Positions 5,854 to 17,214 of a stretch of DNA of 64,000 bases are shown here, piece by piece. The first letter of the stretch is position 1. Each line of letters opens with the position of its first letter. This DNA is from Natronolimnobius sp. AArcel1 (GTDB lineage Archaea > Halobacteriota > Halobacteria > Halobacteriales > Natrialbaceae), in NCBI RefSeq assembly GCF_011043775.1, contig NZ_JAAKXY010000003.1, positions 496,001 to 560,000 of the forward strand, given 5' to 3'. A model generated the notes under the pieces. That model saw only the letters and a list, made by a program, of their open reading frames with translations. It was not told the origin of the DNA and did not search any database. The translations under genes were made by a program, and so were the position numbers.

Positions 5854-6058
5854 GTGAAGCCGACACTTAGACGTGTTCTGTCCGCTCGATGTACCGCTCA
5901 ATCGTTTCTGTTGAGACTGTTCCTGCCGTTCCGATGTAGTACGACTGTTCCCAGAATCCACCACCCCACAGATACTCCTCCAAGAACGACTCGTGCTGTT
6001 CCCACATCTCCCGCGCCGTGATGCTCTTGACAGTTCGTACAATCTCGCTCGGGGCGTG

Positions 6059-6091
6059 TCGTTCGAAAATCTTCGATTCTCGTGATGACGA
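6059..6091 (-). repeat. Hairpin module, half copy (module 1), inside tnpA
   Basis: Given on the plus strand: TCGTTCG (6059-6065), a hairpin centred on ATCTTCGAT (6066-6080), then the exact linker CGTGATGACGA (6081-6091). The second hairpin and the closing CGAAC arm are absent. It occupies the place where the family normally has the HxH motif of TnpA. Confidence 0.65.
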
Positions 6092-6181
6092 CAGTATCTT
6101 GTAATCGTACTCGTCGCACACGTTGCGAAAACTCGCTTCCAGCGAATTCTCGATGGGTTCGAGAATCGAGTGGCGGTACTA

Positions 6182-6271
6182 AGCGGGATCGAAGGTCCCG
6201 CGAGGTACGCAAAGTGGTTCGAAACGTGCGAGCACGTTTCGTCATCACGAGACGGCGCGCCGTCTCGAACG
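6182..6271 (-). repeat. Hairpin module, full copy (module 2), inserted in tnpA
   Basis: Read on the minus strand from 6271: TCGTTCG, the 16-nt perfect palindrome at 6264-6249, the linker CGTGATGACGA (6248-6238), a second perfect inverted repeat at 6237-6222 (AACGTGC/GCACGTT), then TCGAACCAC (6221-6213). GTTCG and CGAAC pair to close a three-way junction. A third hairpin (GCGGGA/TCCCGC, 6200-6182) follows and belongs to the same insert, which separates CPK from YRH of TnpA. Confidence 0.75.
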
Positions 6272-6380
6272 ACTTCGCTTTGCTTGATTTCGGACACCAC
6301 ACGAAGTGGTAGTTGACGTTGTACACCGTGTGATTTGACCGCTTCTCGCCCATATCGAACCCACTCCACCAACACAGTTA

Positions 6381-6390
6381 AGTATATCCA
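6381..6390 (+). promoter_or_regulatory. TATA-like box of the DUF2080-tnpB operon
   Basis: AGTATATCCA lies about 22-30 nt upstream of the tandem GTG starts at 6407/6410, in a short AT-rich patch between divergent tnpA and tnpB genes. Confidence 0.55.
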
Positions 6391-6406
6391 AAATATATAC
6401 ATTGGT

Positions 6407-6562
6407 GTGGTGAATCGCTTTGAAATCGACGGCGAGGAAGTTCTCGACGGTGAGGTCAAACCGTTCGGGAACAGTGCCCACGTCACCGTTCCTAAACGCT
6501 GGCGTGGGGCCGACGTGAAAGTCGTCCGAACCTCAGAACCCGCCAAACAAGACGAAGAATGA
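6407..6562 (+). CDS. DUF2080 family transposase-associated protein
   Basis: A small basic/acidic protein (about 51 residues) starting at GTG 6407 or 6410 (NRFEIDGEEVLDGEVKPFG) with the conserved NSAHVTVPKRWRGADVKV segment, which resembles an AbrB/SpoVT-like swapped-hairpin DNA-binding fold. The family almost always sits directly upstream of IS1341-type tnpB in haloarchaea. Here its TGA overlaps the tnpB ATG (ATGA, 6559-6562), so the two are translationally coupled. The role is unknown; an antitoxin- or autorepressor-like control of TnpB is an inference from fold and position. Confidence 0.88.
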   Translation: MVNRFEIDGEEVLDGEVKPFGNSAHVTVPKRWRGADVKVVRTSEPAKQDEE

Positions 6563-7764
6563 CAGGATCACAGGCTCTCGTCAAGACTCTGGACTTCCAA
6601 CTCAACATCCAGAGTGACAACAAGAGCCTGTTGTACGACGCCACGCTCGAAGCCCGACGAGTGTACAACGAAACCATCCGTCTCGCCAAAGAAGGTGTGG
6701 ACTGGAATACGATTCCCGACCGCGTGGCAGACGACGCCAACCTTGTGAAGAACACGACTCAGCGCGTTGTCGCCAAGGCTCTCGGAGCGATGGAGAACTA
6801 CTACGAGTACGACGACTTCGGGCTCCCGAGCCACACCAAGGACGGTGCGTACCCGCTTCGTGCGAACTACGAGGAGGGGCACAATTTGTCGCTTACCGAC
6901 GATGGCAACGTGGCGTTCCGAATCAGCGCGAAACCGTACAACCACGTCAAGGGCGTCCTCGAAGGGAGTGACGCTCACCTCGATATTCTCAAGACCGCAC
7001 TCGAAAGTGACGAGTGGAAGATTGGGACGGCGGAGGCCCTGTTCCATAACGACACTCCTGAGTTGCACGTCAACGTCACCAACACCGAACAAACAGTTCG
7101 GGACAAGCAGGACTCACGGACGGTTGTCGGCGTGGACGTGAATGAGGACAACGTGGCTCTCACCGCACTCTCCGAGGATGGCGTCGAGGACTCGTTGGTC
7201 ATCGACTTCCCCGAAATCAAGTTCGAGCGCCACCGCTACTTCACGATGCGGAAGCGCGTGCAGAACGCCGGGAAAGACAGCATCCACGACACGTTGGAAG
7301 GGCGCGAAGAACGGTTTGTCCGCGACCGACTCCACAAGGTATCTCGGCACATCGTGGAGTGGAGCCAACAGTTCGAGAAGCCGTGCATCGTCTTTGAAGA
7401 CCTCAAAGAGATGCGCGACAGTATCGACTACGGCACGCGAATGAACCGACGCTTGCACCACCTCCCGTTCCGCGCCCTACAGTTCTATACGTCGTACAAG
7501 GCGTCGTTCGAGGGTATCCCGACTGCGTGGATTAATCCCGAGTACACGAGTCAGCGGTGTCCGATGTGTGGACACACAGCACGTGCGAACCGTAACAAGA
7601 AACGGTTCAAGTGCCGGGACTGTGGGCATCAAGACCACAGCGACCGTAGTGCAAGCGTCAATATCGCCGTGAAAGGCGTGAAGAAACTCGATTGGAATGT
7701 GCCTGCTCTCAACAGCCTTCCCGTTGTTCGGAAGGTGTCGACCGAGAGACGGAGTCTCTCGTGA
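6559..7764 (+). CDS. tnpB: RNA-guided nuclease TnpB (IS1341-type)
   Basis: A 401-residue TnpB, the ancestor-like relative of Cas12, expected to cut DNA at the donor site using an omega RNA. The RuvC-like triad appears intact: Asp193 in VVGVDVNEDN, Glu280 in IVFEDLKEMR and Asp362 in HSDRSASVNIA. The zinc ribbon is complete (C334, C337, C352, C355). The N-terminal half has the usual helical recognition region. It is translationally coupled to DUF2080. The last residues (STERRSLS) and the TGA stop are encoded by a hairpin module rather than by a typical tnpB 3' end, so the natural C-terminus may have been altered. TnpA is broken, so this TnpB probably persists without mobility. Confidence 0.92.
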   Translation: MTGSQALVKTLDFQLNIQSDNKSLLYDATLEARRVYNETIRLAKEGVDWNTIPDRVADDANLVKNTTQRVVAKALGAMENYYEYDDFGLPSHTKDGAYPLRANYEEGHNLSLTDDGNVAFRISAKPYNHVKGVLEGSDAHLDILKTALESDEWKIGTAEALFHNDTPELHVNVTNTEQTVRDKQDSRTVVGVDVNEDNVALTALSEDGVEDSLVIDFPEIKFERHRYFTMRKRVQNAGKDSIHDTLEGREERFVRDRLHKVSRHIVEWSQQFEKPCIVFEDLKEMRDSIDYGTRMNRRLHHLPFRALQFYTSYKASFEGIPTAWINPEYTSQRCPMCGHTARANRNKKRFKCRDCGHQDHSDRSASVNIAVKGVKKLDWNVPALNSLPVVRKVSTERRSLS

Positions 7765-7794
7765 TCACGAAACGGCTGCGCCGTTTCGGACGAC
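7737..7794 (+). repeat. Hairpin module (module 4) at the tnpB stop codon
   Basis: GTCGACC (7737-7743) is followed by a hairpin with 7-bp arms GAGAGAC/GTCTCTC (7744-7760, loop GGA), the linker CGTGATCACGA (7760-7770, one base different from the other copies), a hairpin AACGGC/GCCGTT (7771-7785, loop TGC), and TCGGACGAC. The outer arms GTCG-CC and GG-CGAC pair although they differ from the GTTCG/CGAAC of other copies, which looks compensatory. TGA inside the linker ends tnpB. Confidence 0.7.
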
Positions 7795-7987
7795 GACGGC
7801 AGGCATCGGGGGCCGTGGACGCCCCGACCGTGACCCGCCCGACCGTTCGAGGCTATCAGGCCGATGGTCGGATGGGAGTGTCCGACTAAACCACGGGAAG
7901 CCTCGGGGTCGTTCGGAAGATCTTCGATCTTCCGTGATGACGAGACGCCGTAGGCGTCTCGAACCACTTGACCCCGAGGCAGTTCAC
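7765..7987 (+). ncRNA. Predicted omega RNA / right-end region of the IS element
   Basis: IS1341-type elements make a non-coding RNA from the 3' end of tnpB through the right end; in haloarchaea sense-overlapping transcripts from tnpB 3' ends have been reported. This 220-nt stretch is GC-rich and structured and finishes with the right-end hairpin and the tip GTTCAC. The guide would be the adjoining host sequence starting at 7988 (CCGGTCGTGC...). Limits are approximate, and the large module at 7909-7967 sits in the terminal hairpin loop, so function may be altered. Predicted from position and structure only. Confidence 0.4.
7909..7967 (+). repeat. Hairpin module, full copy (module 3), in the right-end hairpin loop
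   Basis: TCGTTCG (7909-7915), a perfect hairpin GAAGATC/GATCTTC (7916-7932, loop TTC), the linker CGTGATGACGA (7933-7943), a hairpin GACGCC/GGCGTC (7944-7958, loop GTA), TCGAACCAC (7959-7967). GTTCG 7911-7915 pairs with CGAAC 7960-7964. It is flanked by the IS arms CCTCGGGGT and ACCCCGAGG, so it has grown in or inserted into the loop of the right-end hairpin. Confidence 0.75.
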
Positions 7988-9088
7988 CCGGTCGTGCTTT
8001 CGTACCTGCAGACCGACTACGGGCTGAGTCTGACAGTCGCTGGCTTGCTCGTGACTGTGCTCTGGCTGTTCGGCTCGCTCGGGCAACTCCCCGGTGGTAT
8101 CCTTGCCGATCGGTACAACGAGCGGACGCTCATGGGGCTGAGCGCACTTGGTGTCGGGATTGCACTCGGCATCGTCGTCAGTTCATCGACGGCGATCATC
8201 CTGTTCGGTGCAACCGCGCTCTGGGGACTGGCCCACTCGCTGTACCCGATCGCCCGAATTACGTTCCTCTCGAGGCAGTACGAGGACCGTCTTGGGAGCG
8301 CACTCGGTGTCACGATGGCGACGGGCGATATTGGCCAGACGGTGTTGCCCCCGATTGCGACCGTCATTGCCGCAGGAGTTGCCTGGCAGGCGGGGCTGGG
8401 ATTCGTCGCGCCGCTGTTGCTTCTGGCCGGTCTTGGCATTTTCATCGCTGTGCCGGCGCTGCAAGATCACTCTGCGGACGGATCTGACGAAGTCGATGAG
8501 ACGACATCGCTCCGGGAGACACTTGGCGTGTTTCGTGAACTTCGAAATCCGGAGATGGCCGTCATGTCGCTCATCCTGTTTCTCTACATATTTATCTGGC
8601 AATCATTTACGGCGTTTTATCCGACGTATCTGACGAGCGTAAAAGAGATCGATCCGGCGGTCGCGAGCCTGCTCTTTGGCTTTTTCTTCGCGGTCGGTGT
8701 CGTCGTCAAACCCGTCGGTGGCGCGGCGTACGACCGCATCGGCATGCGTGGCTCGCTCGTCGGTGTCTTGCTCCCACCAGTCGCCGGCTTCCTACTGTTG
8801 CCGATGGTCGACCAGCTGTGGGCGCTTGTCGTCATCACCGCCCTGATCAGCACGATGCTTGGCTCCGGTGCGATCACACAGTCGTATCTGGCAGACTCCT
8901 TCTCGGACGCAATGCAGGGAACCGGCCTCGGCGTAATTCGGACAACGACGGCAACGCTCGGTGCCGGCGGGCCACTCTTCTTCGGGATTGTCGCCGACTA
9001 CGGCTTCTTTAATGAGGGATACATCGCGCTGGCCGTAATCATGGCCGCAATAATCGTGCTTACGCTCCGGATGCCACAGTCACCGTAA
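7988..9088 (+). pseudogene. MFS transporter, 3' part (split by IS element)
   Basis: 366 residues carrying TM2 to TM12 of a major facilitator transporter, including motif A between TM2 and TM3 (GGILADRYNERTL). The natural N-terminus (TM1) is 2.2 kb upstream at 5694-5813. The frame is open back to 7697 through the IS right end (463 residues from ATG 7697), so a chimeric protein with about 97 foreign N-terminal residues is formally possible but would lack TM1. Substrate unknown. Haloarchaeal homologues are generic MFS exporters or organic-anion transporters. The reconstructed length (406) is normal for the family. Confidence 0.85.
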
Positions 9089-9199: not shown

Positions 9200-10972
9200 A
9201 TGAGTGAAATTGCTCTCGCGGCCGACTTTGCGATTATCGTCGTTGTTGCGACTGTAATCGGTCTACTCGCCCGTCAGACAGGGCAACCGACGATCATCGC
9301 CTACATTCTGACTGGCATTCTCCTCGGCCCGGTTGCGTTAGACATCGTGACCAACGAAGGACTCGTCGAGTTGATGGGCGATCTTGGTTTTGCGTTCTTG
9401 CTGTTCTTGCTTGGGCTGAAGATGCGTTTCGAGGATATTCGCGAAATCCTTCCGTCTGTTACGAACATTGCGTTCGGACAGACGGTGATGCAGACTGCGC
9501 TTGCGTTTCTGGTTGCGCTGGCGCTTGGCTTCGATACCAATGAAATCCTCGTTATCTCGCTTGCAACTGTCTTCGGCGCGACGCCAATCATCGTCAAGAT
9601 TCTCACCGACAAAGACGAGATCACCAGCCTGCCGGGCAAAATCGATGTCGGCGTCCTCATCGTTCAGGATATCTACCTCGTCGTCGTCCTTGCGCTGTTT
9701 ACGGCCGACGATCTCGGGAACGCAAGCGAGATCGCCTCGACACTCGCCGTGATCCTCGTCATGATGTCCTTTATCGGCATCTTCTCGCTGCTTTCCTCTC
9801 GATACATCTTGCCACAGCTCTTCCGACGGATCGCAGACAACAAAGACGTCTTCCTCATCGTCGCCATTGCGTGGGCATTTCTGTTCGTCGCCATTGCCGA
9901 AGGATCCGACCTCGATCCGAAAGTCGGTGCGTTCCTCGCCGGTATCAGCCTCGCCCAACTCCCCTACAGCAAGGAACTCGAGGATCGGATCACCCCGATT
10001 ACCGACTTCTTCATCCTCGTCTTCTTCGCCACCATCGGCCTCCAAATCGACGGTCTCTCGAGTCTGCTTGCCTACTGGTGGCAAGCAATCGTCGCTTCGA
10101 TCATCCTCATGGTCGGGAACTTCTGGATCATGTTCTATCTGATCGACCGCGAAGGGTTCGCCGTCGAGACCTCCTTCCTCGGCTCGATCAATATGGTGCA
10201 GGTCAGTGAGTTCTCACTGATTGTCGGTGCACTCGCGATTGACCAGGGGCTCATTGACTCGGACATACTCGGCTATCTGAGCCTAATGGCGTTGCTCACG
10301 ATGGGTATTTCGACGTACATTATCGCGTACAATCACGCTATCTACGAGCGCCTCGAGCCGTGGTTCCGGCGGTTCGAATCCGGTGACGAGAAAGATGCGG
10401 ATATCAGCAGGTACGAAAATCATGCAGTCGCCATCGGCTACGATGAAATCACCGAGCGTGCGCTCCCGCTTCTCGAGGAACATTTCGAGGAGGTGGTGAT
10501 CATCGATAGACAAACCGATCATATCGAAGAACTCGAAGAGGAGGGCCGGTACGAGTATGTCTTTGGCGATTTCAGACACACCGAAGTACGGAAGGAATCG
10601 AACCTCAAAGGCGCGGAGTTCGTGTTGAGTTCGAGTGTCGAACGTGAGGTCAACGAGGCGCTGTTGGCAGAGGTTAACGAGGATGCGACAGTGTTCGTTG
10701 AAGCCGAGCGAATTGACGACGCACGTGCACTGTACGACCGCGGAGCGACCTACGTCATCATGACATCCCATCTCGCCGCCGAAAAGCTCAGCGAGTACGT
10801 TGAGTTGTACGTCACCGACCAGACGTCGTTCGACGAGGCAATCAGCCGTGATATCGACGCGATTGAAGCACGACAACACCGAGCAGTCAGACGATTCGGC
10901 GACGACGCCGAAGATGACACCGAAACACTCGAGGACGGCGATCAGCGCCAGGGAGGTGAGTCCGATGGCTGA
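9200..10972 (+). CDS. CPA2 cation:proton antiporter with RCK_N domain, subunit type 1
   Basis: A 590-residue membrane protein of the KefB/NapA-like CPA2 family: about 12 helices in residues 1-385, with the QP...AYILTGILLGP signature in TM2 and the acidic VQD (156-157) expected in the ion path. A cytosolic RCK_N domain starts near residue 405. Its nucleotide loop is degenerate (AVAIGYDEITERAL instead of GxGxxG), although the acidic VVIIDRQ strand is retained. The tail after residue 555 is acidic. It probably exchanges K+ or Na+ for H+. Its TGA overlaps the next antiporter gene by 8 nt (10965-10972), which implies coupled translation and possibly a heteromer. The pair has an inverted counterpart at 12938-16403. 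Confidence 0.92.
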   Translation: MSEIALAADFAIIVVVATVIGLLARQTGQPTIIAYILTGILLGPVALDIVTNEGLVELMGDLGFAFLLFLLGLKMRFEDIREILPSVTNIAFGQTVMQTALAFLVALALGFDTNEILVISLATVFGATPIIVKILTDKDEITSLPGKIDVGVLIVQDIYLVVVLALFTADDLGNASEIASTLAVILVMMSFIGIFSLLSSRYILPQLFRRIADNKDVFLIVAIAWAFLFVAIAEGSDLDPKVGAFLAGISLAQLPYSKELEDRITPITDFFILVFFATIGLQIDGLSSLLAYWWQAIVASIILMVGNFWIMFYLIDREGFAVETSFLGSINMVQVSEFSLIVGALAIDQGLIDSDILGYLSLMALLTMGISTYIIAYNHAIYERLEPWFRRFESGDEKDADISRYENHAVAIGYDEITERALPLLEEHFEEVVIIDRQTDHIEELEEEGRYEYVFGDFRHTEVRKESNLKGAEFVLSSSVEREVNEALLAEVNEDATVFVEAERIDDARALYDRGATYVIMTSHLAAEKLSEYVELYVTDQTSFDEAISRDIDAIEARQHRAVRRFGDDAEDDTETLEDGDQRQGGESDG

Positions 10973-12665
10973 GGAACTCGTCATTACGCTGGCGGTCGTT
11001 TTCGTTGCCGCTGGCGTGCTCTCGCTGATCGCCAATCACTTCGGCCTCTCGCCGATTCCGTTTTACATCATCGCCGGATTGATCGCCGGCAGTTTCGAGT
11101 CCGTAACGCAATCTGAGATTATCGTCCTCGCACAATGGGGAATCGCGTTCCTCGTGTTCGTCTTTGCGATTCGTATCGATTTCGGAGATCTCGAGTCAGT
11201 ACTCCGAGATGCGGAAGTCGCAGCACTGACACAGCTGATTATCGTCGCGCCGATTGCGTTTGGCGTTGGCTATCTGTTTGGCGAACTGTTTGGCTTCGAA
11301 TACCAGCTTCGAAACGCGGCCTACTTCGCTGCGGCTGTCGTTCTGAGTTCGTCACTCGTCGGCGGCGTCTTGCTTGGCTCTGAAATTCGGGCGAACCTCG
11401 TTCACGGTCGACTCGCGTCGTCGATTCACTTTTTCGACGATCTGGTCGCGATTGCGCTCCTGTTGATCCTCAGTACGGAAGTCGTCACAGCGGACGGCAT
11501 CGCTGCACAGATCGGCTACGGCGTGTTGTTCGTCATCGCAGGACTGGTGATTTACCGCCATGGCTTCCCGCTCCTCGTTCGACTCGCTGACGGTGATGGC
11601 GAACTCGTACTCGTCGGCAGCATCTCGATTCTCATCGCGTTCATCGCTGCCGCAGAGTACGTCGGTCTCTCGCTCGTCGTCGGCGCGTTCGCCGCCGGCA
11701 TCGCAATCCGCAGCGACGGGACGCAGGCTCTCGAGGTACAAAACGGAATCAGTTCGATCACCGATTTCTTCGTCGCAATCTTCTTCGTCACTGTCGGTGC
11801 GCTCGTCGCGATTCCATCACTCGAGGTCCTCGTCATTGCGGGTGCGATTACGCTGCTCGTACTGGTTGTGAACCCCATCGTCCACATTGCCTCGTTCATC
11901 TATGAGGGATACGACGCTCGAACGGCGTTTCTGGCAGGCTCGAGCCTCAATCAGGTCAGTGAGTTCGCACTCATCATCGCGATTCAGGCGCTGTTGATGC
12001 AAACGATAGCCGAACCGTTGTTCGACGCGATTATCCTCGCTGCCGCCGCAACGATGGTGCTGACGTTCCTCGGTCGACGAACCGAAGACGCTGTCTACCG
12101 GACTGTCGTCGCGCGGCTGTTTCGCAGCCAGCGAACACGGAAAGTCGACGACCGAAGCAGCGTCGGTGACCTCGACGATCACATCATTATCGTCGGCTAC
12201 GGTCGGATTGGCCGCCAACTCGTCGAAACGCTTGAGACACTCGACCAACCCTACGTCGTCATCGAAAACGATCCTGTTCTCTGGGACGAACTCGATACCT
12301 CCTGTCAACACTACGTCCTCGGCGATGCGCTATCTGACTATCCCTGGGAGAAAGCTCGGGTCGAAAACGCCGCGCTCGTCTGCTCGACCGTGGATCATCA
12401 GGGCGTCTCGGAAACAATCCTCGAGCGCGGGATTGACGCCGATATTGTCCTTCGAGCGGAGTCAACCGGCGATGCAGAATCGTACCTTGAGGCGGGCGCA
12501 ACGCACGTTGCTGTGCCGGACGTCCTCGCTGGCGAGCAACTCGTTTCGACCGTCGAGGCGCTGGCTGCCGGCGAGACGAATCCTGAAACGCTCGAGCAAG
12601 AGCACATGGAATACTTCCGAACGCTCGAACAGGACGGGTTTGCAAGTCGTGACGAACGGCTCTAA
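10965..12665 (+). CDS. CPA2 cation:proton antiporter with RCK_N domain, subunit type 2
   Basis: A 566-residue CPA2 antiporter starting at ATG 10965 (MAEELVITLAVVFVAAG), inside the end of the previous gene. It has about 12 helices, with IPFYIIAGLIAG in TM2 and HFFDDLVAIALL at the expected ion-path aspartate. The RCK_N domain from about residue 405 keeps a canonical GxGxxG (IIIVGYGRIGRQLVE) and the acidic end of beta2 (VVIEND), so it should bind NAD(H) or another nucleotide, unlike its degenerate partner. An upstream in-frame extension to 10800 overlaps the first gene and was rejected. It is followed by a small hairpin and the convergent antiporter operon. Confidence 0.92.
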   Translation: MAEELVITLAVVFVAAGVLSLIANHFGLSPIPFYIIAGLIAGSFESVTQSEIIVLAQWGIAFLVFVFAIRIDFGDLESVLRDAEVAALTQLIIVAPIAFGVGYLFGELFGFEYQLRNAAYFAAAVVLSSSLVGGVLLGSEIRANLVHGRLASSIHFFDDLVAIALLLILSTEVVTADGIAAQIGYGVLFVIAGLVIYRHGFPLLVRLADGDGELVLVGSISILIAFIAAAEYVGLSLVVGAFAAGIAIRSDGTQALEVQNGISSITDFFVAIFFVTVGALVAIPSLEVLVIAGAITLLVLVVNPIVHIASFIYEGYDARTAFLAGSSLNQVSEFALIIAIQALLMQTIAEPLFDAIILAAAATMVLTFLGRRTEDAVYRTVVARLFRSQRTRKVDDRSSVGDLDDHIIIVGYGRIGRQLVETLETLDQPYVVIENDPVLWDELDTSCQHYVLGDALSDYPWEKARVENAALVCSTVDHQGVSETILERGIDADIVLRAESTGDAESYLEAGATHVAVPDVLAGEQLVSTVEALAAGETNPETLEQEHMEYFRTLEQDGFASRDERL

Positions 12666-12671
12666 ACACGT

Positions 12672-12687
12672 ATCTGTCTCAACAGAT
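12672..12687. terminator. Hairpin between convergent antiporter operons
   Basis: ATCTGT (12672-12677) pairs with ACAGAT (12682-12687) around CTCA. It lies 7 nt after one operon end and 17 nt from the end of the opposing one, as expected for a shared terminator. Confidence 0.4.
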
Positions 12688-12703
12688 GGTGTGAAACCAG
12701 ACC

Positions 12704-12898
12704 TCAAACTGGACCATTGAAGAATTCGTGGACGACAAACACGAGGGCAAGTCCAACGACAAATAAGGGGGCTGCAACGAGTGCCTCGAGCTCGATGGCA
12801 TCTGCAAGTCCAAGTGCGGCAACGACCAGCAGTCCAACACCAACGGTGTAGACGGCGAGATTTCGACCAATCCGAAGCACTTGCCCGAGTTCAAACAC
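12704..12898 (-). CDS. Small two-helix membrane protein
   Basis: About 64 residues from the GTG at 12898 (FELGQVLRIGRNLAVY); a TTG at 12925 would add nine residues. Two hydrophobic helices are visible: VYTVGVGLLVVAALGLADAI and, after an acidic turn, LVAAPLFVVGLALVFVVHEF. The end is NGPV. It is the last gene of the minus-strand antiporter operon, beginning about 40 nt (or 12 nt with the TTG) after the antiporter stop. The other antiporter pair has no equivalent. It could be an accessory subunit, but I do not recognise the family. Confidence 0.65.
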   Translation of the reverse strand: MFELGQVLRIGRNLAVYTVGVGLLVVAALGLADAIELEALVAAPLFVVGLALVFVVHEFFNGPV

Positions 12899-12937
12899 AG
12901 CGATTTCTTCGCACAGACAGACCAAAGGCTTGCTGAT

Positions 12938-14644
12938 TCACTGTAAATGTGGCTGCATCGAATCAGCTTGTAATTGCAGATCCTGCTGGCGTGCTGCTCG
13001 AAGTTGTTCGGCAGTCAAGTCACCCTCGAGTAAGTCTTCAACGTGTTCGACGAGTTGCTGGCCGGCGAGAAGTTCGGGGAGGGCAACGTACAGCGCACCT
13101 GCCTCGAGCAACTCGAGTGCGGTTTGCTGCTCACGCGCACGGACGATACAATCCGCGCGGAAGTCATAGGAGAGGATCCGTCTCGAGACGGAATCAGACT
13201 CAATCGTCGAGAAAACCAGCCGTGCTTGCTCGACGTTTGCTTTCTCCCAGGTGTACTGTTCCATCGCGTCGCCAACGACGAGTGCGTTGCACTCCTCACG
13301 AACGGTTTCACGGCGAGCCGGATCGTTTTCGATGACGACGTAGGGCTGATCGAGATCTTCACAGGTTTCGACCAGTCGCTTCCCCTGTCGCCCGTAGCCG
13401 ACGATGACGACGTGATCGGAGAGGTCCACTGGCACGTCACTCCAGGCATCAATCTTGCCGTGTGCACGTGGGAGGAGTCCGCGTGCGACTACCCAGCGAT
13501 ACAGCTGCTCGTCGTACCGCTGGCTGAGGCTCGAGGTGATCATCGTAATGGCTGCAGCGAGGATGATCGCGTCAAACACCGTCTGAGAGATTGCGCCTAT
13601 CAGTAGTGCCTGAATCGCGATGATGAGCGCGAACTCACTGACCTGATCGACGCTGAGGGCAGTCAACGTTGCCGTGCGTCGTTCGTAGCCCTTCGCCAGC
13701 AAGATCGCCGTCGTTAGCGCTGGTTTTACGACGACTGTAAGCACAACGAGAGCGCCAGCAAGCACCACCTTCTCGATGGACTCGGCTTGGCCCGTCTCGA
13801 GGAACGGGAACGTGATGAGCGCGCCGATTGTCACGAAGAAGATCGCGACAAAGAAGTCCCTGATCGACTCGAGGCCGTTGAACAGACCGAGATACTCGAT
13901 TGGATCGTGTCGAACTGCGAGTCCAGCAGCGAATGCACCGACGACGATCGAGATGCCAGCGTACTCAGCAGCCCCAATAAATGCCGCGAGCAAGGAGACG
14001 ACGCCCAGAATCATGAGTTCGTCCGACTCTCCAGCAAGCCGACCAATGAGATCGAACAGGTACCGATTGACGAGGTACGCGAGGGCGATCAAGGCCAGAC
14101 CGTAGCCGATAGCGGCCGCAACTGGGCCGACCTCGAGCGTTCCCGTCCCCAGGATGAGCACGAAGACAATTGCGAGCAGGTCTTGAACGAACTGGATCGT
14201 ACTCGCCAGTCGACCACGGATTAGCCGCAGGTCGATCTCAGTCTGGAGCAGTGCTCGGCCGACGATTGTCGAGGAGAGTGCGGCCGCAATCCCCAGATAG
14301 ATCGCTTCAGTGGGGGCAACGCCGAGGACGATGCTGATCCCGACACCGAGCGAGCCAACGACGAAAATCTGGCCAAGCGCCGCGATTTCGCTGTCGCCAA
14401 GCACCGACCGAACGGCAGTGAAATCGATTCCAACACCAAACGAGAACACGAGCAACGCAATCCCGTACTGGGCAATCTCGAGGGTGAGTTGCTCGTCAAG
14501 CCCAAAGCCTTCCATCGCAAAGCCGGCAATGACGCCTGCGAGGATGAAAAACGGCACCGTTGGTAGATCGTACCGGTTTGCTACCAGCAAGAGCGGCCCG
14601 GTGATGATGAACATGATCGAGACGGCAGTGAGTAACTCACTCAT
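12938..14644 (-). CDS. CPA2 cation:proton antiporter with RCK_N domain, subunit type 2 (paralogue)
   Basis: A 568-residue antiporter with start ATG 14644 (MSELLTAVSIMFIITGPLLL), eight nucleotides inside the end of the upstream gene. About 12 helices, VPFFILAGVIAG in TM2, FVQDLLAIVFVL for the ion path, and a C-terminal RCK_N domain with canonical VVIVGYGRQGKRLVE followed by VVIEND. It aligns by eye with the 10965-12665 protein throughout (RLAST/SIxFxxDLLAI, QVSEFALIIAIQALL), so it is a diverged paralogue. The C-terminal tail is Gln-rich (AARQQDLQLQADSMQ). Probably a K+(Na+)/H+ antiporter gated by a nucleotide. Confidence 0.92.
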   Translation of the reverse strand: MSELLTAVSIMFIITGPLLLVANRYDLPTVPFFILAGVIAGFAMEGFGLDEQLTLEIAQYGIALLVFSFGVGIDFTAVRSVLGDSEIAALGQIFVVGSLGVGISIVLGVAPTEAIYLGIAAALSSTIVGRALLQTEIDLRLIRGRLASTIQFVQDLLAIVFVLILGTGTLEVGPVAAAIGYGLALIALAYLVNRYLFDLIGRLAGESDELMILGVVSLLAAFIGAAEYAGISIVVGAFAAGLAVRHDPIEYLGLFNGLESIRDFFVAIFFVTIGALITFPFLETGQAESIEKVVLAGALVVLTVVVKPALTTAILLAKGYERRTATLTALSVDQVSEFALIIAIQALLIGAISQTVFDAIILAAAITMITSSLSQRYDEQLYRWVVARGLLPRAHGKIDAWSDVPVDLSDHVVIVGYGRQGKRLVETCEDLDQPYVVIENDPARRETVREECNALVVGDAMEQYTWEKANVEQARLVFSTIESDSVSRRILSYDFRADCIVRAREQQTALELLEAGALYVALPELLAGQQLVEHVEDLLEGDLTAEQLRAARQQDLQLQADSMQPHLQ

Positions 14645-16403
14645 TGAGACCACCTCCGACGCCACCGTCAGGTTCTGGGAACGGCTCATCACTGCTCAGC
14701 AACTCAATATCCGATTCGAGCGTTTGCTCGAGGTGGTCTTCAACGCGACCAGCCTCGAGATACGTGTGCAGGTACGCAGCAAGTCTGTCGGCGGCAAGAT
14801 ATGGGGTCATCAGTACACAGTGGACGCCGCTCTCGTAGAGGGTACGTGCGTCTTCGATTCGATCCGCTTCAACGAGAACTGTCGCGTCCTCGCTGACCGA
14901 CTCGAGCAATACCGAGTTGACCGCCGGATCGACCGACGATGAGAGGACGAAATCAGCCCGTTTCGCGGCGACATCCTTTCGGATCGTTGCATTTCGGAAG
15001 TCACCGTAGACGGCGTTGTACCCCTCTTCTTTGAGTGTTTCGACGTGTTCGACGGTTCGGTCAACGACGACTACATCCTCGTAGTGATCTGCGAGCAACG
15101 GAAGGACATTTCGCGTTACGTCGTCGTAACCGATGACGACTGCATGGTCGCGGTACTCCTGTTTATCGCCCTCAAATGCACCCTCGCCGGTGAAGCGCGT
15201 GATCGTCGACTCGAATCGCTCGAACAGCGTATGGCTAAACTCGATGAAGTACACCGAGACGGCCATCGTGAAGATGGCAAGCAGCGTCATGAAGCCAAGC
15301 ACTTCCGCCTCGATGAACCCACCTGTCACTGCGACAGCGGTGACGATAATCCCGAATTCGCTGACTTGAATCATGTTGAGGCTGCCGAGGAACGTCGTCT
15401 CGGATCCGAAGCCCTGCCAGTCGAGCAGGTAGAAGAAGATCACGAACTTTACTGGCATCAACACCAGCGCAGCGATGATCGCTTCCTGGGTGTAGGCAAA
15501 CAGTTGCGCCGCCTCGAGGTCGAGCGCAACGGAGACAAAAAAGACCATGACGAACAGGTCAGTCAGTGGATTAACCCGGTCCTGTAACTCCTTGCTGTAG
15601 GGCAGTTGGGCGATGGCGACGCCAGCCATGAACGCCCCCATCTCAATCGAGAGGTAGGCTTCGATGCCAAACGGCTCGAGAAAGAGGTTGATGTTGTCAG
15701 AGACGAAGACGAACAGAAACGCCCACGCAATGGCGACGAGGAAGAAGATTTCCTTGTTGTCTGCAATCCGGCGGAAGACAACCGGGAGGAGTGTTCGGGA
15801 AGCAACAAGCGCCGCGACTGTCACAAGTGCAACGAGCACGAGGACAACGGCGAGCGTGGTTGCGACCTCTGTAAGGCTATCCGGTTGACCGGCCGCAAGC
15901 ACGGCCAGAATAATAACGACGACGACGTCTTGGACGAGCAGGATGCCAACATCGATTTTGCCGTGTAACGAGGTCGCTTCGTCCTTGTCGTTTAGCATCT
16001 TGATGACGACCGCCGTCGAACTATACATCACTGCAAGACCGATGAGAAACGCCTCGAGCAGACCGAACGGGGGTAACGCATACGCGATTCCCGCACCCGC
16101 GAGAAAGACAAGCGCCATCTGTGGAAGCGCGATTTTGACGATTGGCGAGAGGACGTGTTGAATCTCCTCGAGGCGCATCTTGATCCCGAGTAAGAACAGC
16201 AAGAATGCGAGACCAAGTTCCGAGAGCAGTTCGGTCAGTTCGCTAACCTCAACGATCCCGAGCGCTGCTGGCCCGATCACGACGCCGGCGAGAATGTACG
16301 CGATGATCGTTGGCTGGCCAGTCTGTTTGGCGAGAAATCCAGCAAATGTCGCACAAAACAAAATAACAGCGAGATCAACAGTAAGCGCTGTTTCGGTAAC
16401 CAT
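14637..16403 (-). CDS. CPA2 cation:proton antiporter with RCK_N domain, subunit type 1 (paralogue)
   Basis: A 588-residue antiporter, first gene of a minus-strand operon. TM2 carries QTGQPTIIAYILAGVVIGP, almost identical to the 9200-10972 protein, and the ion-path segment is LLVQDVVVVIILAV. The RCK_N domain has a degenerate glycine loop (AVVIGYDDVTRNVL) exactly as in its paralogue, with VVVVDRT after it. The 8-nt overlap with the next start (14637-14644) also matches the other pair. The tail is GGVGGGLNE. Inferred: type 1 and type 2 subunits form a heteromer in which only one subunit binds nucleotide. Confidence 0.92.
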   Translation of the reverse strand: MVTETALTVDLAVILFCATFAGFLAKQTGQPTIIAYILAGVVIGPAALGIVEVSELTELLSELGLAFLLFLLGIKMRLEEIQHVLSPIVKIALPQMALVFLAGAGIAYALPPFGLLEAFLIGLAVMYSSTAVVIKMLNDKDEATSLHGKIDVGILLVQDVVVVIILAVLAAGQPDSLTEVATTLAVVLVLVALVTVAALVASRTLLPVVFRRIADNKEIFFLVAIAWAFLFVFVSDNINLFLEPFGIEAYLSIEMGAFMAGVAIAQLPYSKELQDRVNPLTDLFVMVFFVSVALDLEAAQLFAYTQEAIIAALVLMPVKFVIFFYLLDWQGFGSETTFLGSLNMIQVSEFGIIVTAVAVTGGFIEAEVLGFMTLLAIFTMAVSVYFIEFSHTLFERFESTITRFTGEGAFEGDKQEYRDHAVVIGYDDVTRNVLPLLADHYEDVVVVDRTVEHVETLKEEGYNAVYGDFRNATIRKDVAAKRADFVLSSSVDPAVNSVLLESVSEDATVLVEADRIEDARTLYESGVHCVLMTPYLAADRLAAYLHTYLEAGRVEDHLEQTLESDIELLSSDEPFPEPDGGVGGGLNE

Positions 16404-16554
16404 CTGCGCGATGCTTCCTAGTCGACTGAATTAACGGTGTCGAACCTGGCATCCATACGTCGTGGTATCGTCAGAACACACCCACGCGACACCAATAAGA
16501 ATCGGTGCAGCCAGAAGGGATAGTTTCAACCCCCTCGAGTCCGCCTTGACTGCT

Positions 16555-17214
16555 ATGACACAGGCGGTCGTCTTCGACCTCGATTATACCCTTGCGGTGC
16601 CGACGCGGGACCGCGAAACGCTGTTACAGGAGGCCGTCGACGCCGCCGACGCACCCGCGCTCACGCGCGAGGACTATCTCGAGGCCCACGGAAACCACCT
16701 CACCCAGCGTTCGCGCGAGCCGATTTTCACCGACTTGCTCGCTGAGCACGAAACGGAGGCTGACCCGGCCGCCGTTGCCACAGCCTACCGCGAGGCAATC
16801 GCAGACGCACTCGAGGCGCTGCCGGGCGTCGAATCCATGCTCGAGGACCTCAAAGCCGACTACCGCGTTGGGCTGTTGACCAACGGCCCCGTCCGCGCAC
16901 AGCGAGACAAACTCGAGACGCTCGACTGGGACAACCGATTTGACGCCGCACTCGTCACCGGCGAACTCGAGGCTGGTAAACCCGATCCGCGTGCGTTCGA
17001 GGCGATTGCAACCGAACTGGACGTCGAACCAGCGGAAACGGTCTACGTCGGCGACGACGTCGACGCCGACGTCTACGGCGCGACCAACGCCGGAATGGCG
17101 GTCATACAGGTCCTGCTCGAGGACGGCCCCGAGCCCGATTCGCGGGCTGTGGCCCACGTCGAACAGGCAGAGATTGCGACAGCGCTGCCGGACATTCTTG
17201 CTGACCTCGAGTGA
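16555..17214 (+). CDS. HAD-superfamily hydrolase
   Basis: A 219-residue phosphatase-like enzyme. Motif I is VFDLDYTL (nucleophile Asp and acid/base Asp) at residues 5-12, motif II is LLTNG, motif III Lys lies near EAGKPDPRAF, and motif IV is YVGDDVDADVYGA. A helical C1 cap occupies about residues 16-85. This is the layout of phosphoglycolate phosphatase/haloacid dehalogenase-like enzymes, but the substrate cannot be assigned. I chose the ATG at 16555 because motif I must be near the N-terminus; the open frame back to 16462 adds 31 residues without conservation. It is divergent from the antiporter operon. Confidence 0.88.
   Translation: MTQAVVFDLDYTLAVPTRDRETLLQEAVDAADAPALTREDYLEAHGNHLTQRSREPIFTDLLAEHETEADPAAVATAYREAIADALEALPGVESMLEDLKADYRVGLLTNGPVRAQRDKLETLDWDNRFDAALVTGELEAGKPDPRAFEAIATELDVEPAETVYVGDDVDADVYGATNAGMAVIQVLLEDGPEPDSRAVAHVEQAEIATALPDILADLE

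Follow-up and report, generated by a model that had tools for sequence, protein, structure and literature searches.

Paired type 1 and type 2 CPA2 antiporters with asymmetric RCK domains, duplicated in Natronolimnobius sp. AArcel1, as an apparently undescribed two-protein variant of KefC-like antiporters

We analysed a 64,000-nt stretch of Natronolimnobius sp. AArcel1, hereafter the window (always the full stretch), which harbors two operons, A and B, each coding for two CPA2 antiporters with an RCK domain. The first gene of each pair is called type 1 (A1 and B1) and the second type 2 (A2 and B2). The operons are convergent, lying tail to tail, and each is ordered type 1 then type 2 (Table 1). 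In a Pfam search, all four proteins matched Na_H_Exchanger (PF00999) over the whole membrane domain with 115-179 bits, against a gathering score of 26.2, and TrkA_N (PF02254) with 53-65 bits, against a gathering cut-off of 23.8; TrkA_C had no match in any of the four. An earlier reading of this DNA, made from the sequence alone (the sequence-only reading), had described the gene lengths, an overlap of exactly 8 nt within both pairs and a canonical or broken nucleotide loop in each protein. The lengths were confirmed from the open reading frames (ORFs), and the two overlaps and the four loops were found as described.

Table 1. Genes, nucleotide loops, overlaps and Shine-Dalgarno (SD)-like motifs of the two antiporter operons (positions in the window).
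Feature	Position	Strand	Remark
A1, type 1 CPA2 antiporter, 590 aa	9200..10972	+	QD ion motif, Asn at KefC K307, degenerate RCK
A2, type 2 CPA2 antiporter, 566 aa	10965..12665	+	DD at KefC 155-156, Asn at 307, canonical RCK loop
B1, type 1 CPA2 antiporter, 588 aa	14637..16403	-	QD plus Lys (KefC-like site), degenerate RCK
B2, type 2 CPA2 antiporter, 568 aa	12938..14644	-	QD plus Lys, canonical RCK loop
A1 RCK loop	10436..10453	+	GYDEIT, degenerate
A2 RCK loop	12195..12212	+	GYGRIG, canonical
B1 RCK loop	15114..15131	-	GYDDVT, degenerate
B2 RCK loop	13382..13399	-	GYGRQG, canonical
8-nt overlap, A1 stop/A2 start	10965..10972	+	ATGGCTGA
8-nt overlap, B1 stop/B2 start	14637..14644	-	ATGAGTGA
SD-like motif in A1 tail, upstream of A2 start	10952..10959	+	GGAGGTGA
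SD-like motif in B1 tail, upstream of B2 start	14650..14657	-	GGAGGTGG

The proteins of one type are 49% identical between the operons (A1-B1 and A2-B2), whereas the two members of a pair share 27% (A1-A2 and B1-B2). The type 1/type 2 pair thus predates the split of A and B and, judged by these identities, was duplicated as one unit.

For the distribution of the two types, we surveyed 101 genomes of the family, 292 of the class and 295 of the phylum, and then retrieved 99 regions; an independent collection comprised 71 named loci. Near-full genes in the 99 regions and the window numbered 132 for type 1 and 133 for type 2. They include 127 neighbouring pairs, with type 2 following type 1 on the same strand, in 59 haloarchaeal genomes. 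In the class survey, type 1 was detected in 45 genomes and type 2 in 43; in the two genomes that lack type 2 at the threshold (G002 and G094), the sequence is truncated close to contig ends. Neither type was found alone as an intact gene in the 292 class genomes, the 101 family genomes or the 71 named loci. The co-occurrence survey, which the sequence-only reading had named as its refuting test, therefore found neither type commonly alone and no intact orphan.

Where a copy had no intact partner, a contig ended there or the adjoining partner gene carried a frameshift or a stop. All candidates for an intact orphan were rejected, since every unpaired case was a contig end, a broken partner, a remnant or a chimera. 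The chimera (G063, L281 5044-6698) joins a type 1 front to a type 2 rear, contains an in-frame TAG and is apparently the product of a deletion inside a pair. In G071 (C84), a 28-residue type 1 remnant adjoins its type 2. Type 1 is broken in G020, G141 and G200; in the second of these (Natronocalculus amylovorans, L157 2286-4022), it is interrupted by a single in-frame TAG, and the type 2 gene beside it is intact.

The partners are also inherited together. Type 1 distances and the distances of the type 2 partners were correlated in a mirror-tree comparison (r = 0.92). For genomes that carry more than one pair, we asked in each of 3340 comparisons whether the nearest type 1 and the nearest type 2 of another genome sat in a single pair; they did so in 3180, and the exceptions listed were near-ties. 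The tree took in single-gene homologues from methanogens, E. coli KefC, and pairs from metagenome-assembled genomes (MAGs) of Nanohaloarchaea, Aenigmatarchaeota and Diapherotrites, and each type formed one clade with a support of 100 in the Shimodaira-Hasegawa-like approximate likelihood ratio test (SH-aLRT). Two methanogen single-gene relatives clustered with type 1 (support 86). Their loop is canonical (GMGRFG), so the degenerate loop of type 1 is probably the derived state.

The divergent pairs L245, L250, L254, L256, L258, L259, L261 and L276 were found in the Nanohaloarchaea, Aenigmatarchaeota and Diapherotrites MAGs, and these DPANN pairs come mostly from soda-lake samples. Misbinning as the whole explanation was rejected, as the contigs have 39-47% G+C (56% in L261) and the sequences are strongly divergent. 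Most DPANN pairs look genuine, and the pair may be common to haloarchaea and their DPANN neighbours. Contigs L257, L265 and L267, assigned to 'Bacteroidetes' and 'Salinibacteraceae' MAGs, may be misbinned.

The overlap measures exactly 8 nt in 107 of the 127 pairs and always reads RTGNNTGA. An SD-like match, loosely defined, was present just upstream, inside the type 1 tail, in all 107 of these pairs, and in many of those listed it is GGAGGTG. There is an invariant glycine near the type 1 C-terminus, which would be explained by the SD-like motif coded there. Because the 8-nt overlap recurs at this frequency and the convergent A/B layout is present in 23 surveyed genomes, the arrangement in the window is not a product of chance. 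The overlap is most naturally read as coupling the translation of the two genes at a fixed ratio.

The two types differ in the nucleotide site of the RCK domain. None of the 127 type 1 proteins has a GxGxxG loop, whereas 102 of the 127 type 2 proteins do, A2 and B2 among them. Two arginines of KefC, R409 and R496, hold the phosphate of AMP (PMC11150392). The R409 position is Glu or Asp in 98 of 127 type 1 proteins and Arg in 97 of 127 type 2 proteins; the R496 position is Glu in 99 of 127 and Arg in 122 of 127, respectively. Beyond the loop, therefore, both phosphate contacts of type 1 are usually replaced by conserved acids, and this acid-for-arginine exchange supports, at the level of sequence, the earlier suggestion of a single type of nucleotide site, with none in type 1. 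The first glycine of the loop is kept in all 132 type 1 proteins, and invariant positions are more numerous in type 1 than in type 2.

The ion site follows KefC more closely in type 1. KefC binds K+ through T127, Q155 and D156; the T and the Q are present in all 127 type 1 proteins and the D in 125, and this Q-D site of the KefC type fits K+. In type 2 (n=127), position 155 is Q in 50 proteins, D in 42, E in 26, N in 7 and another residue in two. Type 2 shows a charge switch without exception: an acid at 155 occurs with Asn, Ser or Thr at 307 (68 proteins), and a neutral residue with Lys (59 proteins). The D-D combination at 155-156 is restricted to clade A type 2 proteins, always without Lys at 307, and clade C type 2 proteins have lost the equivalent of KefC E337. 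In the window, B1 and B2 have all four of T127, Q155, D156 and K307. A1 has Asn in place of K307, and A2 has Ser, Asp, Asp and Asn at 127, 155, 156 and 307.

AlphaFold2 (AF2) models were obtained with a predicted local distance difference test (pLDDT) score of 82 and a predicted template modelling (pTM) score of 0.70 for A1, and of 86.5 and 0.83 for A2. The best PDB match of both models was KefC, followed by NapA. KefC, the K+/H+ antiporter of E. coli (PDB 8bxg, 8by2), has the same fold and the same domain order of CPA2 core and RCK. Its K+ site is also present in type 1 and its phosphate arginines mostly in type 2, whereas type 1 has acids where KefC binds the AMP phosphate. However, KefC is the product of a single gene and has a glutathione (GSH) site besides the AMP sites in its two chains, whereas here two chains with 27% identity are coded by overlapping genes. 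The KefC equivalog model NF002924 gave at most 142 bits, below its cut-off of 752. YbaL, a putative K+ efflux transporter of E. coli, is the closest NCBIfam model of type 2, with 86 bits for A2 and 137 bits for B2 (cut-off 700 bits); among solved RCK domains, that of YbaL (3fwz) comes nearest in sequence, although YbaL is a single gene.

NapA, the Na+/H+ antiporter of Thermus (PDB 4bwz, 5bz2), shares the transmembrane (TM) fold, and the D-D of A2 resembles the NapA motif. However, NapA has no RCK and combines its D-D with a lysine in TM11, whereas the type 2 acid at 155 never occurs with Lys at 307. The NapA-type combination of D-D (TM5) and Lys (TM11) was not found in any of the 127 type 2 proteins, and their 155/307 charge switch runs counter to NapA, which pairs D with K. 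The degenerate nucleotide loop of type 1, with its acids, is like that of the Ca2+-gated RCK domains of the MthK type, although MthK is a homomeric K+ channel and the similarity is not significant. Heterodimeric ABC exporters, such as TM287/288, consist of paralogous subunits with one canonical and one degenerate nucleotide site. They are unrelated to the antiporters, and the nucleotide powers transport there, whereas it would only regulate it here.

We found no description of the two-subunit arrangement in the open-access literature, which, within that literature, agrees with the sequence-only reading, in which it was not known from described KefB/NapA systems. Plasmid annotations label such genes 'cation:proton antiporter', and a soda-lake genome report merely counted Kef-type genes (PMC5609402). 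The pairs are real and strongly conserved, and they form an apparently undescribed two-protein variant of KefC-like antiporters.

The matches included about 31 named isolates, most of which can be recognised as haloalkaliphiles from their names or from what is known of their biology, and nearly all close relatives come from haloalkaliphilic or soda-lake hosts. The hosts include Natronorubrum, Natronococcus, alkaliphilic Natrialba, Natrarchaeobius, Halorubrum vacuolatum, Halorubrum alkaliphilum and Halobiforma nitratireducens. Many host MAGs carry the sample codes of Kulunda soda lakes (CSSed, T1Sed and B1Sed; PMC6146748). Within Halorubrum, the pair was detected in 5 of 52 genomes, including, as judged by contig coordinates, H. 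vacuolatum, H. alkaliphilum, strain CSM-61 and, apparently, a soda-lake MAG. Within Natrialba, it was detected in 4 of 7 genomes, namely N. magadii (matched through plasmid NC_013924), N. hulunbeirensis, N. chahannaoensis and strain SSL1. By elimination only, the three genomes without it are probably the neutrophiles N. asiatica, N. aegyptia and N. taiwanensis. Type 1 genes also lie on plasmids of N. magadii and of two Natrinema. In Natronorubrum bangense, the same A-type pair is apparently present on both chromosome and plasmid (L222 and L232, with equal ORF lengths and model scores).

Our preferred interpretation, to which we assign a probability of roughly 0.55, is that each pair is a nucleotide-gated, KefC-like heteromeric K+/H+ antiporter for pH homeostasis in alkaline brine. 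It starts from the strict pairing, the conserved overlap, the co-inheritance, the residue asymmetry, the fold and the link to alkaline hosts, and from these we infer the heterodimer, its ligand, the ion and the direction of transport. KefC is a homodimer in which the AMP-bound RCK pair inhibits transport (PMC11150392). By analogy, type 1 and type 2 would form a heterodimer built in the same way. Type 1 would keep the K+ site of KefC with an RCK that no longer binds nucleotide, whereas type 2 would supply the nucleotide-binding RCK site, for an AMP- or NAD-like ligand, and its ion site would be freer to change. The dimer would then carry one nucleotide site, and one nucleotide per dimer would gate transport, with the overlap coupling keeping both proteins in equal amounts. 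When the outside pH exceeds 9, electroneutral Na+/H+ exchange cannot import protons against the pH gradient, but molar internal K+ can drive their import. Salt-in archaea maintain a steep outward gradient of K+, which would power the exchange of K+ out for H+ in and so acidify the cell interior when the medium is strongly alkaline.

Several results weigh against this interpretation. Since KefC and NapA both form homodimers, the default expectation is a homodimer. The ion-site Asp156 is invariant in type 2, and, from its sequence, type 2 may transport too. In 25 of the 127 pairs, the loop is non-canonical in both members; clade C accounts for about 20 of these, with GYSRLT-like loops in type 1 and DFEHGG-like loops in type 2, four have GYDPVV/GYDREG-like loops, and one is a further single case. 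The DPANN pairs are likewise non-canonical in both members, with type 2 loops such as GYDVQG. The pattern of one canonical and one degenerate loop thus applies to 102 of the 127 pairs but not to these 25 or to the DPANN pairs, and a single nucleotide site is not a property of the whole family. As far as the loops tell, a single site per dimer is a property of the commonest clades, both window pairs included. The sequence-only reading is therefore retained for the pairing and, at the level of sequence, for the loss of the type 1 site, but not for the asymmetry as a universal rule; its obligate heteromer stands as a proposal. As for the habitat, most alkaliphile labels rest on species names and general background on the organisms, and pairs also occur in Saliphagus, Halorientalis, Halobium and Natronococcus jeotgali, which are not known as alkaliphiles; the pairs of these four are more distant (51-57% to A1).

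The homodimeric default leads to the most serious alternative, in which the genes code for two co-expressed homodimeric antiporters, type 1 independent of nucleotide and type 2 gated by it, with different ion sites and ligands. It agrees with the homodimeric state of the known relatives (PMC11150392), with the ion-site Asp in both types and with AF2 models that both look complete. However, independent antiporters would be expected to separate sometimes, whereas no intact orphan was found in hundreds of genomes, the overlap is fixed, and the pairs duplicate and move as units. We consider this alternative unlikely, though still to be reckoned with. A heteromer gated by both nucleotide and cation, in which the type 1 RCK reads Ca2+, Mg2+ or another cation through its acids in the manner of MthK, appears improbable: the acids at the R409 and R496 positions are indeed conserved and a weak MthK match was obtained (E about 0.1), but this similarity falls short of significance and is equalled or exceeded by that to YbaL and TrkA. 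Ordinary tandem duplicates, with one copy decaying and no joint function, are very unlikely, for although the genes are adjacent paralogues and such duplicates are common, the "degenerate" positions are conserved (the acid at R496 in 99 of 127, the first loop Gly in 132 of 132), type 1 exceeds type 2 in invariant positions, and the pairing is ancient and common to DPANN archaea. The heteromer is the best of these explanations, although unproven.

Other genes surround the operons. A 64-residue, two-helix membrane ORF (12704-12898, minus strand) follows B2 closely, in the space between the two operons, and has no Pfam match. Relatives of it were found downstream of the type 2 gene at 14 other loci, 13 behind B-type pairs and one in a tandem arrangement, where it follows the A pair, and the ORF could be a small accessory subunit. 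The ORF list of the window contained no KefF-like ancillary gene. An MFS-like ORF (7697-9088) lies upstream of A1 and a HAD-like ORF (16462-17214) beyond B1. An IS200/IS605-like element, read from the ORF list only, occupies 5898-7764 upstream of pair A, with a TnpB-like ORF carrying a zinc ribbon (6559-7764) and an apparently broken TnpA-like ORF (5898-6353).

A wider picture can be drawn only tentatively, and we hold it to be rather doubtful as a whole. In it, labour would be divided so that type 1 carries K+/H+ and type 2 reads the nucleotide, duplication and transfer of the pairs would have carried them through the soda-lake archaea, those of the DPANN group among them, and they would be a main determinant of haloalkaliphily. 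The closest solved antiporters are homodimers. If the heteromer is real, transport and sensing would lie in two different chains with opposite losses and could be studied one at a time. The genome paper of Natrialba magadii reported that genes for alkaline survival could not be identified (PMC3403918), and the pairs are candidates for such genes. As they are present in only part of Natrialba and Halorubrum, their role in alkaline life is testable by gene deletion.

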